A DNA stretch of 35,863 nucleotides, from assembly GCA_947628155.1 (NCBI GenBank), contig CANQYQ010000007.1:1-35863 (forward strand). Reading direction: 5' to 3'. Numbering within the stretch: the stretch's first letter is position 1; every line of letters begins with the position of its first letter. The position numbers were made by a program, and so were the translations under genes. Origin of the DNA: an uncultured Clostridia bacterium (GTDB lineage Bacteria; Bacillota; Clostridia; UBA1381). Under the pieces are notes generated by a model. That model saw only the letters and a program-made list of their open reading frames with translations, was not told the origin of the DNA and ran no database searches. Shown here in pieces: positions 9,682 to 13,651 of the stretch.

Positions 9682-10779
9682 TTATTCCAGCATATTTATA
9701 TCGGTCGTTTCGGCCACAGTGGAGAGGCCGTAGACCATTAAGATCTCATCGTAATTCTCTTTTTCGCAAAGTGATGTCACGGTGTCGGTAAAGTACCGCA
9801 AATCAACCATATCCACAACATTGTAATGGCGCGCGAGGAACGGTGCGAGAGAATTTCCGTAGGAGTCCTTAATTATCAGCAGCCGCCCGCCGTCCGCGTT
9901 CGCGTTTTCGATCCGCGTATACGCGTGATTGCCATTGAGGAATACAGGGTATTTGTCGGCCTTTTCAAGATGCTCGCGGAAAAACATATCGGAATATGTA
10001 TTCTCGGCGCCGCCGTCGGATATTGTCACGCTTATATCTGCCGGATATGTCCATAGCTCCATATCCTCGGGCTTTTCCGCCCAAAGCGCGCTTTTGGAAT
10101 ATGATGTGCCGCTGAACCCGCCGTGTGTTTCAATTTCGAAATCCGCACGGTCAAACGCGTCGGGTACGAGTGATTTATAGGCCTCGTACGCGCCGAGACT
10201 TGTCCAGTGGTGGTCGGTTTTATAATATAGCTGTTCGGCATCCTTTAAGCCGCCGAATACGGAGAACAGGTCGATTGTATGCGCGGTTTTACCCAGCTTG
10301 TCATGTGCGCGCGAAATCAAGCCGCGATCGGGATACGGCGCGTGATTTAGCGGAAGCTTGTCCTCCATTACCGCGCCGACGGTCGGTATTATCATAACGG
10401 TTACGGGCGCCATTGCTGTTTTCACAAAATCGGCAATGGCGGCGGTGTTTTTTTCAAAGCTTGGCGTGGTAACGGGAATATTTATCAAATATCCGTCCTT
10501 GCCCTTGTAAACGCCGGAAACGCCGTTTCTGCCGGTCGCGAGCTCAAAATATGAATTTGCCGCGACAAATACGTCGCGGAACGGAAGGTTATCGGTAAGG
10601 TAGTCTTCCGTTTCCGTTTCAAACGAGCCGTTTAACACGTTTTTTACGCTAAATTCCGGAGGTTTTGCGAGCGCGCGTTTTTCGTTTGCGGAAAAATCGG
10701 ACTTCGGGAGAAGCATGAACAGGATAAGCATAATGAAAATAAACGCCGTAAACAGTACGGTCATGATTTTATCACGCAT
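9682..10779 (-). CDS. DHHW-family (AlgX/AlgJ-like) extracellular protein
   Basis: 365 residues. One N-terminal membrane helix (about 5-24) anchors an extracellular SGNH-like domain. The name-giving DHHW is at 189-192 in YYKTDHHWTSLGAYEA, and a candidate nucleophile is Ser306 in IIKDSYGNSL. In alginate and related systems AlgX/AlgJ proteins work with an MBOAT acyltransferase to acetylate polysaccharides outside the membrane, using Ser and a DxH pair. The gene follows the MBOAT gene by 12 nt, in keeping with such a partnership. The acceptor glycan is unknown. Confidence 0.87.
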   Translation of the reverse strand: MRDKIMTVLFTAFIFIMLILFMLLPKSDFSANEKRALAKPPEFSVKNVLNGSFETETEDYLTDNLPFRDVFVAANSYFELATGRNGVSGVYKGKDGYLINIPVTTPSFEKNTAAIADFVKTAMAPVTVMIIPTVGAVMEDKLPLNHAPYPDRGLISRAHDKLGKTAHTIDLFSVFGGLKDAEQLYYKTDHHWTSLGAYEAYKSLVPDAFDRADFEIETHGGFSGTSYSKSALWAEKPEDMELWTYPADISVTISDGGAENTYSDMFFREHLEKADKYPVFLNGNHAYTRIENANADGGRLLIIKDSYGNSLAPFLARHYNVVDMVDLRYFTDTVTSLCEKENYDEILMVYGLSTVAETTDINMLE

Positions 10780-10791
10780 TTTTCTCCCTCC

Positions 10792-12183
10792 TTAGAATCT
10801 AAAATACAAAAACGGGTTGTAGCTTTGACTTACAAGCGCCGCTGTGCACAGTATCAGCGCGGCTGCTGCCGCCGCCGTTTCCATAACCGCCGCAGCCTTG
10901 CCGCCGCGCGATTTCAGCCAGATGCTTTTCGCGGCCGGTGTGGACGCAAATACAGCCGCCGCGAGCAGCGGAATGTATGAAATAATCGTGCTTAACGCCG
11001 CCGCGCCGATCACACCGTCCGACAGCGTGAACAGCCGAGATATATACCCTGCCAGCGAGGGGATATCCTCGAAATAAAATATCACCCAGCCGATTAGTAT
11101 GAAAAACAGCGCGTATACGTGCTTTAAAGCGGACGGCAGCTTGTTTAAGAAGCGGCCGTAAACATATTTTTCCAGTACGAGCAGAACGAAGTAATATATG
11201 CCCCACAGCACGAAATTTAAGCTTGCGCCGTGCCATAAACCCGTAAGCGCCCATACGGCAAACAAATTGAATATTATACGCGGCGTGCTGCGGCGGTTGC
11301 CGCCGAGAGGTATATAGACATAGTCCCGGAACCATGTGCTTAAGGATATATGCCATCGCCGCCAAAACTCTGTTATGCTCTTTGAAATATAGGGATAATC
11401 AAAGTTTTTTATAAACTCAAATCCGAACATTTTGCCAAGTCCGCACGCCATATCGGAATATCCGGAGAAGTCGAAATAAATCTGGAAAGCATATGCGATA
11501 ATTCCGACCCACGCGCCTATTATTCCGCTGTTTTCGGCGCGCAGCGAGTCAAACAGCATACCCGTCTGGTTCGCGATAAGCACCTTTTTTGACAGTCCGA
11601 TTGCGAACAGACGCACGCCGTCGGCAAACTGATGTATATTTTCGCGGCGGTTGTCAAGCATATCCTCGATATCGCGGTATCGGACGATAGGCCCGGCGAT
11701 AAGCTGCGGAAAGAATGAGATATACGTTCCGAAATTGATAAGGCTTCTCTGTGCCTTTGTATCGGCGCGGTAAATATCAATGATATACGATACCGCCTGG
11801 AATGTGTAGAATGATATGCCTATCGGCAGTGCGATGTCAATATGGGGCAGCCCGGAAAAGGGCGGTATTTGCCGCAGTAGATCCGATACAAAACCCGCGT
11901 ATTTGAATATGCCGAGCAGCGCGAAGCTTATTACAAGCGCAAAAACAACAAACGTCCTTGAAAGACGTTTGTTGTCTCTGTATTTTTCTATTAACAGTCC
12001 GAATATGTAATTGCTGACGATCGACGCGGCCATTATCAGCACGAATACCGGTTCGCCCCAGCCGTAAAACACAAGATTCGCGATAAGCAAAAACGCGTTG
12101 CGGCACCGGTGCGGTATGATATAGTATATTCCCAGTACCAAAGGCAGATAAAGAAATATAAATATCAGGCTTGAAAAGTTCAC
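10792..12183 (-). CDS. MBOAT-family membrane O-acyltransferase
   Basis: 463 residues with about ten membrane segments. The family signature is present: YAFQIYFDFSGYSDMACGLG (231-250), RRWHISLSTWFRDYVYIPLGG (275-295, His278) and the catalytic region TGLWHGASLNF with His318. AlgI/DltB/PatA-type MBOAT proteins move acyl groups, often acetate, from cytoplasmic donors to partners outside the membrane. Between a lipoprotein gene and a DHHW gene it most likely modifies a cell-surface polymer. It is not DltB, since no dltA, dltC or dltD is nearby. Confidence 0.93.
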   Translation of the reverse strand: MNFSSLIFIFLYLPLVLGIYYIIPHRCRNAFLLIANLVFYGWGEPVFVLIMAASIVSNYIFGLLIEKYRDNKRLSRTFVVFALVISFALLGIFKYAGFVSDLLRQIPPFSGLPHIDIALPIGISFYTFQAVSYIIDIYRADTKAQRSLINFGTYISFFPQLIAGPIVRYRDIEDMLDNRRENIHQFADGVRLFAIGLSKKVLIANQTGMLFDSLRAENSGIIGAWVGIIAYAFQIYFDFSGYSDMACGLGKMFGFEFIKNFDYPYISKSITEFWRRWHISLSTWFRDYVYIPLGGNRRSTPRIIFNLFAVWALTGLWHGASLNFVLWGIYYFVLLVLEKYVYGRFLNKLPSALKHVYALFFILIGWVIFYFEDIPSLAGYISRLFTLSDGVIGAAALSTIISYIPLLAAAVFASTPAAKSIWLKSRGGKAAAVMETAAAAAALILCTAALVSQSYNPFLYFRF

Positions 12184-12198
12184 TTTATCTTATGCTCC

Positions 12199-12738
12199 TT
12201 ACTCCGCGTCTTCCGCGATTGCGGTGAGAATATTACGAATCGTGGCCGACGGGTCCTCGCTTACGCATACGACTATGCAGTCAGTACCCTCGAGCGGCTC
12301 CGCGACCGCGTCGTCGAGCTTTGGAACCTCTCCGGGCGCGTATGAGGCGTAATTGGTTTTCTGCGATTCTATTCTTGCGTTGACCGCTTCCATCACCTTA
12401 TCGGCGTCCTTCGTTTCAAATACCGCGATTTCATCAACAACCGCGGGCGTACCGGCAAAACCGGCCGCGTTGGTCACAGTCTCGCCGTCAAGTCCGTAAC
12501 GGCGCATGACAGCGTCGGGGGACATTTCCGTAAGCTCCTCCGTAAAGTGAGCCGTTTCGTTTAAAATAGCCGCGATCCTTGACGCGCTTGTGTCGCCTAC
12601 TGGGGCGGCTTCGGACTGAGCTGTATCAGCCTGAGCCGTATCGGGTGTTTGGGTATCATCCGTGTTCTTTCCGCCGCCGCATGACGCGAGCGCGATTACG
12701 CACGACAGCGCCGCGGCAGTCATTAATATTTTTTTCAT
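12199..12738 (-). CDS. Lipoprotein, DUF4358-type
   Basis: 179 residues. A lipoprotein signal peptide ends in LASC, giving acylated Cys20. A Thr/Asp/Gln/Ala-rich linker (about 25-52) precedes a compact domain of about 125 residues. The domain pattern (FTEELTEMSPDAVMRRYGLD, then AVFETKDADKVMEAVNARI) fits DUF4358, whose function is unknown. It lies between an SGNH-like gene and the MBOAT gene with gaps of 3 and 15 nt. It would be matured by Lgt, encoded 3 kb away. It may be an assembly or scaffold factor of the module, which is inference. Confidence 0.8.
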   Translation of the reverse strand: MKKILMTAAALSCVIALASCGGGKNTDDTQTPDTAQADTAQSEAAPVGDTSASRIAAILNETAHFTEELTEMSPDAVMRRYGLDGETVTNAAGFAGTPAVVDEIAVFETKDADKVMEAVNARIESQKTNYASYAPGEVPKLDDAVAEPLEGTDCIVVCVSEDPSATIRNILTAIAEDAE

Positions 12739-12741
12739 TGA

Positions 12742-13572
12742 TTAACCTCCTTGTTCCTGTATATATTTTAAGCATTTTATATAATAATCCTCACCGAAGT
12801 GCACACCGTCCGTGGCGGCGCTGTCGGGCAGATATCCGTCGTTCCCGACCAATACGGAAAATAAATTAATATATGTCGAGCCGGTGTTTTTCGCGACGGT
12901 TTTTATACCGGAATTGTAAGCCTTGATTTTATCTATATTCAACCCGTCCACGTTTTGGTCGGAGAGTTCATGGGATATGGGCGTTATGGACAGCAGATAT
13001 ATTTTCGCGTCTGGCTGACTGAGCTTGATTTTTTTGATCATTGCCTCGTATTGCTCAAAAAACGCGTCTCCTACCCAGCCTATCTCGTTCTCGCCGAACA
13101 TCATAAATATTTTATCGTACTTCCGCCCCGAAGCAAATTCCTCGGCCGCAGGGACAGTGCCGGTGTCGGTAGGCTCGGAAACGGCCTGCGAAACCGTCAT
13201 GCCTACCTTCGAAATATACTCCGTATCCGATGGTACAAGCTCGTATACCTTCATGGCTTCAATAAAGGAATTGCCGAAAAACGCGCTGTTGGAAAAAAAT
13301 GTCTCGTTTATCCCGTATTCGTTGAGTACCGGCGCGGGCGACGGTGTTGGCTTTGCCGCTTCCGCCGCCGCGATACGCGCCGCCTCTTCGGCCTTTTTCG
13401 CCTGCATATCCTTCACGCAGCCTCGTATTCCCAAAATCACCGCGATGATCAGACCAATCGCCGCGAGCGCCAATAACGCGCGCCGCAGCATATATATTTT
13501 GCGTTTAGCCGCCTTTTCGCGCTGCTCCTTACGTTTTTGTATTTCCAATATTTTTTTTCTATCTATCGCCAT
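12742..13572 (-). CDS. Membrane-anchored SGNH/GDSL-like hydrolase
   Basis: 276 residues from the ATG at 13572, preceded by GGAGGAG at a slightly long spacing; upstream ATGs lack a site. A strongly basic cytoplasmic start (1-30), one membrane helix (31-49), an Ala/Glu- and Pro-rich linker (57-82) and an extracellular SGNH domain follow. Block I reads FGNSFIEAM with Ser102, where GDS is usual. Block III is FGENEIG (Asn162) and block V DGVHF (Asp255, His258). The catalytic Ser, Asp and His positions are kept, so it could deacylate or transfer acyl groups. It is the first gene of the MBOAT module. Confidence 0.82.
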   Translation of the reverse strand: MAIDRKKILEIQKRKEQREKAAKRKIYMLRRALLALAAIGLIIAVILGIRGCVKDMQAKKAEEAARIAAAEAAKPTPSPAPVLNEYGINETFFSNSAFFGNSFIEAMKVYELVPSDTEYISKVGMTVSQAVSEPTDTGTVPAAEEFASGRKYDKIFMMFGENEIGWVGDAFFEQYEAMIKKIKLSQPDAKIYLLSITPISHELSDQNVDGLNIDKIKAYNSGIKTVAKNTGSTYINLFSVLVGNDGYLPDSAATDGVHFGEDYYIKCLKYIQEQGG

Positions 13573-13622: not shown

Positions 13623-13651
13623 ATTTTATCATACTTGCAAATTGCCGTCAA
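13623..13651 (-). promoter_or_regulatory. Sigma-A promoter of the acylation module
   Basis: On the minus strand TTGACG (13651-13646), a 17-nt spacer and TAAAAT (13628-13623) make a near-consensus promoter. Transcription would start about 45 nt before the SGNH-like gene at 13572. Confidence 0.65.

Follow-up and report, generated by a model that had tools for sequence, protein, structure and literature searches.

What four adjacent genes do together at the cell envelope of an uncultured Clostridia bacterium is the question raised by this locus. The window, which means the whole analysed stretch of 35,863 nucleotides (contig CANQYQ010000007.1, assembly GCA_947628155.1), carries on its minus strand, from 13572 to 9682, four consecutive open reading frames (ORFs) for an SGNH/GDSL_2 protein, a DUF4358 lipoprotein, an MBOAT acyltransferase and a DHHW protein, with intergenic gaps of 3, 15 and 12 nt. 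An earlier note on this DNA had described such a cluster with short gaps, and the ORFs were present and passed the Pfam cut-offs. The core enzyme pair belongs to a type already described. Its new partner, DUF4358, is a barely studied family without assigned function and accompanies the pair in many gut bacteria. Outside the cell, the four gene products probably attach small acyl groups to a sugar polymer. We find it somewhat probable that the genes form a surface acylation machine for an envelope glycan, in which DUF4358 would be a third core subunit and an optional SGNH protein would act on the same acyl esters.

The catalytic residues of the MBOAT and DHHW proteins were almost invariant. His278, His318 and Tyr460 of the MBOAT were kept in all 98 aligned sequences linked with DUF4358, and the FxYxxF tail, to which Tyr460 belongs, was found in 99/99 DUF4358-linked and 27/27 other MBOATs (at least 430 aa). 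As described in the accessible part of PMC12148441, it is the Tyr in this motif that PatA auto-acetylates and from which PatB accepts the acetyl group. The relatives of the window MBOAT in the PDB were DltB chains, and its score of 157.6 bits did not reach the DltB equivalog cut-off of 375. Asp189, His191 and Ser306 of the DHHW protein were conserved in 85/85 relatives and Arg328 in 83/85. The available text of PMC9487903 gives KDS, DxRY and TDHHW, with an Arg oxyanion hole, as the motifs of PatB1, and the window protein carries all of them (TDHHW188-192, KDS304-306 and DLRY326-329); its PDB relatives were 4nzk and PatB1 itself (5v8d). Because these residues, including the acyl-shuttle Tyr, are so well kept, the core is likened to PatA1/PatB1 and by homology, with strong motif support, would function like that pair. 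The MBOAT and DHHW proteins had been taken before as an envelope acylation pair, and every tested motif was present. At another locus (L134:8368-11988) the DHHW protein has 1206 aa, and its about 830 N-terminal residues match no Pfam family.

Among the 291 genomes sampled from the class, 63 have DUF4358 and 140 have DHHW. Both occurred together in 60 of the 63 DUF4358 genomes against 30.3 expected (hypergeometric P 2e-19, phylogeny uncorrected), a co-occurrence far beyond chance. We collected 75 DUF4358-anchored loci (74 fetched stretches and the window; the weakest matches G011:C294, G049:C17, G015:C59 and G057:C381 were left out), and the order SGNH-DUF4358-MBOAT-DHHW was seen in 25 of them (23, and in addition L038 and L052, where a DUF was surplus or carried two labels). 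DUF-MBOAT-DHHW without SGNH made up 11 loci, and SGNH-DUF alone 13 (manual count). These order counts come from slightly blurred hidden Markov models (HMMs), with fusion sequences in the seed alignments and false double labels, for example in L052; the HMMs were rebuilt without fusion sequences for the results from the fusion analysis onward.

Linkage was also read from the side of the MBOAT, in the best 80 of 583 candidate loci from public genomes, a choice biased to relatives of the window. DHHW lay within 3.5 kb in 78/80, and DUF4358 was on the same strand in 50/80 and on the opposite strand in 3/80. SGNH on the same strand was found in 18/80, all of which had DUF4358 as well. This nesting concerns same-strand neighbours; one locus near a contig end (L161) has an SGNH gene on the opposite strand and no DUF4358 was seen there. 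Taken with the gene order in the 75 loci, this linkage bears out that the four-gene set is conserved across genomes, which the earlier note had asked to be checked.

Natural fusions tie the same domains into one chain. In six genomes (L049, L059, L067, L069, L071 and L076) the gene directly after MBOAT encodes DHHW, SGNH and DUF4358 as a single polypeptide of 738-823 aa, and a Pfam scan of four of them (L049, L067, L069 and L071) confirmed each of the three domains. The MBOATs of these six loci form one tree branch with support of 94, so the fusion may go back to a single event. In addition, DUF4358 is fused to an ALGX/DHHW-like domain at L102. These fusions are direct evidence that the DHHW, SGNH and DUF4358 domains work together. 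With the linkage above, they uphold the view that DUF4358 is a new partner of the acylation pair.

The position of SGNH in the set is looser. Eight genomes with an SGNH-DUF4358 pair were inspected for MBOAT and DHHW genes elsewhere. Four of them (G207, G228, G246 and G265) have an MBOAT-DHHW pair of this kind apart from the SGNH-DUF4358 pair, and G208 has a separate MBOAT-DHHW pair with its own weakly scoring DUF4358. G078 has a separate DHHW, G151 a more distant MBOAT-DHHW pair, and G289 solely DHHW-like genes in the stretches taken. Thirteen genomes with DUF-MBOAT-DHHW but no adjacent SGNH were searched genome-wide for SGNH, with 5/5 positive controls found. Eight had no strong SGNH relative, and five had one elsewhere (G202, G097, G035, G247 and G118, in the last within a second, complete set). 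Because of these eight genomes SGNH appears dispensable to the DUF4358-MBOAT-DHHW core. The separated pairs and the SGNH-less sets together mean that DUF4358 goes with either side, and that SGNH is optional. So the four-gene unit claimed earlier stands for DUF4358, MBOAT and DHHW as conserved core, but not for the SGNH gene as a fixed member.

The window DUF4358 protein has a lipobox (LASC) with Cys20 at 12681-12679 and a compact alpha/beta domain at about residues 50-179. A pattern search found the lipobox in 94/127 relatives and missed some obvious ones. The structure model had a mean predicted local distance difference test (pLDDT) of 84.3, reaching at least 93 in every ten-residue block between 71 and 170, and showed a single alpha/beta domain. 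Foldseek gave no match to this model at E 0.001 or better. The best match by VIA-align was the PknH extracellular domain (Z 6.6, root-mean-square deviation (rmsd) 5.0, 122 aligned), which is within the stated noise range of the tool (Z <8). The sequence gave weak PDB matches, mostly signal-peptide regions of other lipoproteins, and no match against plasmids. Overall conservation is very low, with one alignment column conserved at 90% or more. In the open-licence literature, as far as its text was accessible, no published link of DUF4358 to MBOAT or DHHW was found, which does not prove absence; the name DUF4358 turned up there in a single paper, and no mention of PF14270 was found. A paper on lipoprotein acetylation (mBio 2025, PMC12345273), considered as a related case, proved unrelated from the part available. 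DUF4358 is also seen fused to a transglutaminase-like domain (L101:4098-5756 and L127:9636-10730) and to Big_2 domains. At L105:6626-7621 and L106:6378-7373 it carries three SLH domains, and the neighbouring protein is short and DHHW-like.

The SGNH protein has the catalytic residues Ser102, Asp255 and His258 in 276-aa numbering (Ser122, Asp275 and His278 in 296-aa numbering), which were kept in 48/51, 51/51 and 47/51 relatives, respectively. They were intact in 38/38 members from loci containing MBOAT. In 4/13 members from loci without MBOAT they were partly lost, and all four belong to one genus in the family of the window. These relatives without catalytic Ser and/or His (L068:6935-7930, L081:5504-6493, L091:5412-6491 and L093:5448-6563) adjoin DUF4358 and share their neighbours. 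The retention of a pseudo-enzyme beside DUF4358 suggests a non-catalytic role. The structure model (mean pLDDT 87.7) has a standard SGNH hydrolase fold; esterases lead the fold comparison (Z 20.2, rmsd 2.4, about 172 aligned), followed by PatB of C. jejuni (Z 16.4, rmsd 2.7, 170 aligned). This match of a predicted model does not separate esterase from transferase, nor does the Block II residue, Gly in 35/51 and Ser in 11/51, decide between them. SLH wall anchors were found on four SGNH proteins (L064, L084, L088 and L090) and two DUF4358 proteins, which therefore lie at the cell surface.

Several known systems resemble this set. PatA1/PatB1 of Bacillus cereus, for O-acetylation of the secondary cell wall polysaccharide, has the same MBOAT and DHHW-family partner with KDS, TDHHW and DxRY motifs, and the window DHHW protein is related in sequence to PatB1. 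It differs in that PatB1 adjoins csaB and S-layer genes, and the accessible text of PMC9487903 describes neither DUF4358 nor SGNH for it. AlgI-AlgJ-AlgF-AlgX likewise combines an MBOAT with two proteins of the SGNH superfamily and a small accessory protein. The part of PMC10641220 available describes this accessory protein, AlgF, as an interaction mediator with two beta-sandwich domains, whereas DUF4358 is predicted to form one mixed alpha/beta domain; because the folds differ, the likeness would be in role only. The alginate system also differs in its polymer synthase, and the second enzyme here is a GDSL_2 protein and optional. CcsH/CcsI is a known clostridial MBOAT-DHHW pair of a cellulose locus, where, in the available portion of PMC7710045, it lies with CcsA, CcsB and CcsZ and no DUF4358 is named. 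PatA/PatB for peptidoglycan O-acetylation and DltB/DltX/DltD share the MBOAT His, the FxYxxF acyl-shuttle motif and a Ser-Asp-His partner (PMC12148441, as far as accessible). In the window set, by contrast, the partner is of the DHHW family, the MBOAT scores below the DltB cut-off, and the motif sits on the MBOAT itself and not on a DltX-like microprotein. Among the ORFs at about 5.3-18 kb, the only part of the window that was read, no csaB or S-layer gene was found beside the four-gene set, and no polymer synthase and no CcsA, CcsB or CcsZ neighbour was noticed.

The chemistry that we infer would start with transfer of the acyl group from a donor to MBOAT His318, then to MBOAT Tyr460 and then to DHHW Ser306, which would pass it to a hydroxyl of the envelope glycan. 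DUF4358, as a small membrane-anchored surface protein, would serve as an adaptor and bring DHHW into contact with its partners and the polymer. The fusions and the company that DUF4358 keeps with either enzyme make a surface adaptor the best reading, AlgF-like in role and not in predicted fold. SGNH, where present, would be kept beside DHHW by DUF4358 and act on the same acyl esters. An editing esterase seems slightly more likely than a second transferase, since the core lives without SGNH in the eight genomes above and four SGNH proteins are SLH-anchored. On a wider scale, and a little short of an even chance in our judgment, the MBOAT-DHHW acylation machines common in Clostridia and some Bacilli may have in DUF4358 a third core subunit that has gone unrecognised. 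DUF4358 would be an adaptor with its own fold that has come convergently to play the AlgF part and that accepts an optional SGNH enzyme, and one lineage would have merged the adaptor with both enzymes.

Two other arrangements of these parts have to be weighed. The acyl group might go in a two-step relay from MBOAT to DHHW and on to SGNH as terminal transferase before it reaches the polymer. Such a route has been proposed for AlgI-AlgJ-AlgX, and DUF4358 would then correspond to AlgF. We regard the relay as unlikely here, though far from negligible. The part list equals AlgIJFX (PMC10641220, accessible part), the confinement of same-strand SGNH to DUF4358-bearing MBOAT loci and the intact triads of all SGNHs from MBOAT-containing loci are as such a relay would have them, and the DHHW-SGNH-DUF4358 fusions suit consecutive steps better than opposed ones. 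But SGNH-less genomes keep the core, a DHHW of PatB1 type transfers to glycan unaided (PMC9487903, from the text available), and SLH-anchored SGNHs would be located away from the membrane. It is likewise doubtful that the DUF4358 lipoprotein binds glycans or acts as a sensor, and so presents or senses the acceptor polymer instead of bridging enzymes. Its anchoring at the surface through lipid, helix or SLH, its transglutaminase-like and Big_2 fusions and its best, weak structural match to the sensor domain of PknH would fit such a function; a Z below 8 may reflect merely a common arrangement, and with a single well-conserved column there is no obvious binding site.

Some results weigh against the adaptor-based acylation machine that we prefer. 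DUF4358 was not within 3.5 kb in 27/80 MBOAT loci, some merely through contig ends, and in the window genome itself another MBOAT-DHHW pair lacks both DUF4358 and SGNH (contig C29, L199:328-2913, tail YNPFLYFRF), so MBOAT-DHHW can occur alone. DUF4358 linkage took 19 changes on the MBOAT tree (133 rows) against 32.4 when shuffled; it is clustered on the tree and yet often gained or lost, which means repeated loss or gain. In ten genomes without DUF4358 that were searched for SGNH, G026 had two strong relatives (C18 and C19) and G025 weaker ones. The four degenerate SGNH copies of one genus, beside DUF4358 and away from MBOAT, are unexplained by a purely enzymatic role, and fusion of SGNH to the transferase DHHW speaks for the relay rather than for an editing esterase. 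The DUF4358 fold offers no functional hint.

With the tie to known chemistry a family without function gets a testable role, and the extracellular parts of an acylation machine are named in common gut bacteria, which include the named strains Flavonifractor plautii, Intestinibacter bartlettii and Blautia sp. An81. Surface acyl groups can alter lysozyme resistance and immune recognition (PMC12148441, in the part available). Acyl movement between two SGNH-type active sites could be shown on the single-chain fusion that nature already provides.

For the acceptor, the window genome has many SLH domains, two pyruvyltransferase-family genes, one TagB/F-family gene and two sulfatase-family genes, the latter presumably of the length of lipoteichoic acid synthases (LTA-synthase-like). 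Both pyruvylated wall polysaccharide and teichoic acids are therefore possible candidates. The pyruvyltransferase-family matches sit on other contigs than the four-gene set. A general dependence on SLH or S-layer was rejected: SLH occurred in 39/63 DUF4358 genomes and in 157/228 others (Fisher p 0.36), which is no enrichment. Clustering of neighbours for a conserved flanking polymer-synthesis gene gave generic or lineage-bound clusters alone (named by eye: ABC transporter in 21 loci, sigma-factor-like in 9, recombinase-like in 8).

The DHHW-side, downstream neighbours in the window encode a TSCPD protein and a GerMN-domain protein, and upstream lies a divergent gene for a STAS-domain protein. 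Further neighbours we take, by eye from their translations, to be spoIIAB, sigF, lgt, mraZ, mraW and spoIIIA genes. Such sporulation-type genes adjoining the set (sigF, spoIIIA, GerMN) would suggest a module acting in spore formation, a tie drawn earlier, and GerMN and TSCPD genes are also near the set in one genome of the same genus (L050). We hold this role to be very improbable and dropped it. At the other loci these neighbours were not conserved, with GerMN in L050 only and TSCPD in L050 and L078, and sigma-factor matches near the set in four loci had 28-41% identity, which does not establish sigF. Spo0A was not enriched with DUF4358 (48/63 genomes versus 181/228 others, Fisher p 0.60); 15/63 DUF4358 genomes had no Spo0A match, and five of these (G122, G146, G169, G190 and G284) hold the whole four-gene set. 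The promoter-like site is of sigma-70 type. The adjacency to sporulation genes is local.

Table 1. Features of the four-gene set in the window.
Feature	Position	Strand	Basis
Promoter-like site TTGACG-17-TAAAAT (TG before second hexamer), 5' of SGNH gene	13623..13651	(-)	Consensus scan; suggestive
SGNH/GDSL_2 protein, 276 aa, N-terminal membrane helix	12742..13572	(-)	Pfam Lipase_GDSL_2 55.1 bits (cut-off 32.9)
DUF4358 lipoprotein	12199..12738	(-)	Pfam DUF4358 63.1 bits (cut-off 25)
MBOAT acyltransferase, His278 and His318	10792..12183	(-)	Pfam MBOAT 114.1 bits (cut-off 27)
MBOAT C-terminal acyl-shuttle motif FLYFRF (FxYxxF), Tyr460	10795..10812	(-)	Tail motif; role from PMC12148441 (accessible part)
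DHHW/PatB1-type acyltransferase, N-terminal membrane helix	9682..10779	(-)	Pfam DHHW 108 bits (cut-off 25), ALGX 37.1 bits

One promoter had been proposed for the cluster. A promoter-like site does lie 5' of the SGNH gene (Table 1), but 14 such sites were observed across the region against 7.3 expected by shuffling, some within genes, so the single promoter is a reading only. The longest ORF of the SGNH gene opens at 13632 (296 aa). Because this start falls within the promoter-like site and the ATG at 13572 has a GGAGGAG ribosome site in front of it, this ATG is the likely start. In Intestinibacter bartlettii the SGNH gene (L126:5600-6388) is open over its full length with no ATG, GTG or TTG 5' of the catalytic part, and it seems likely that a rarer start codon is used.

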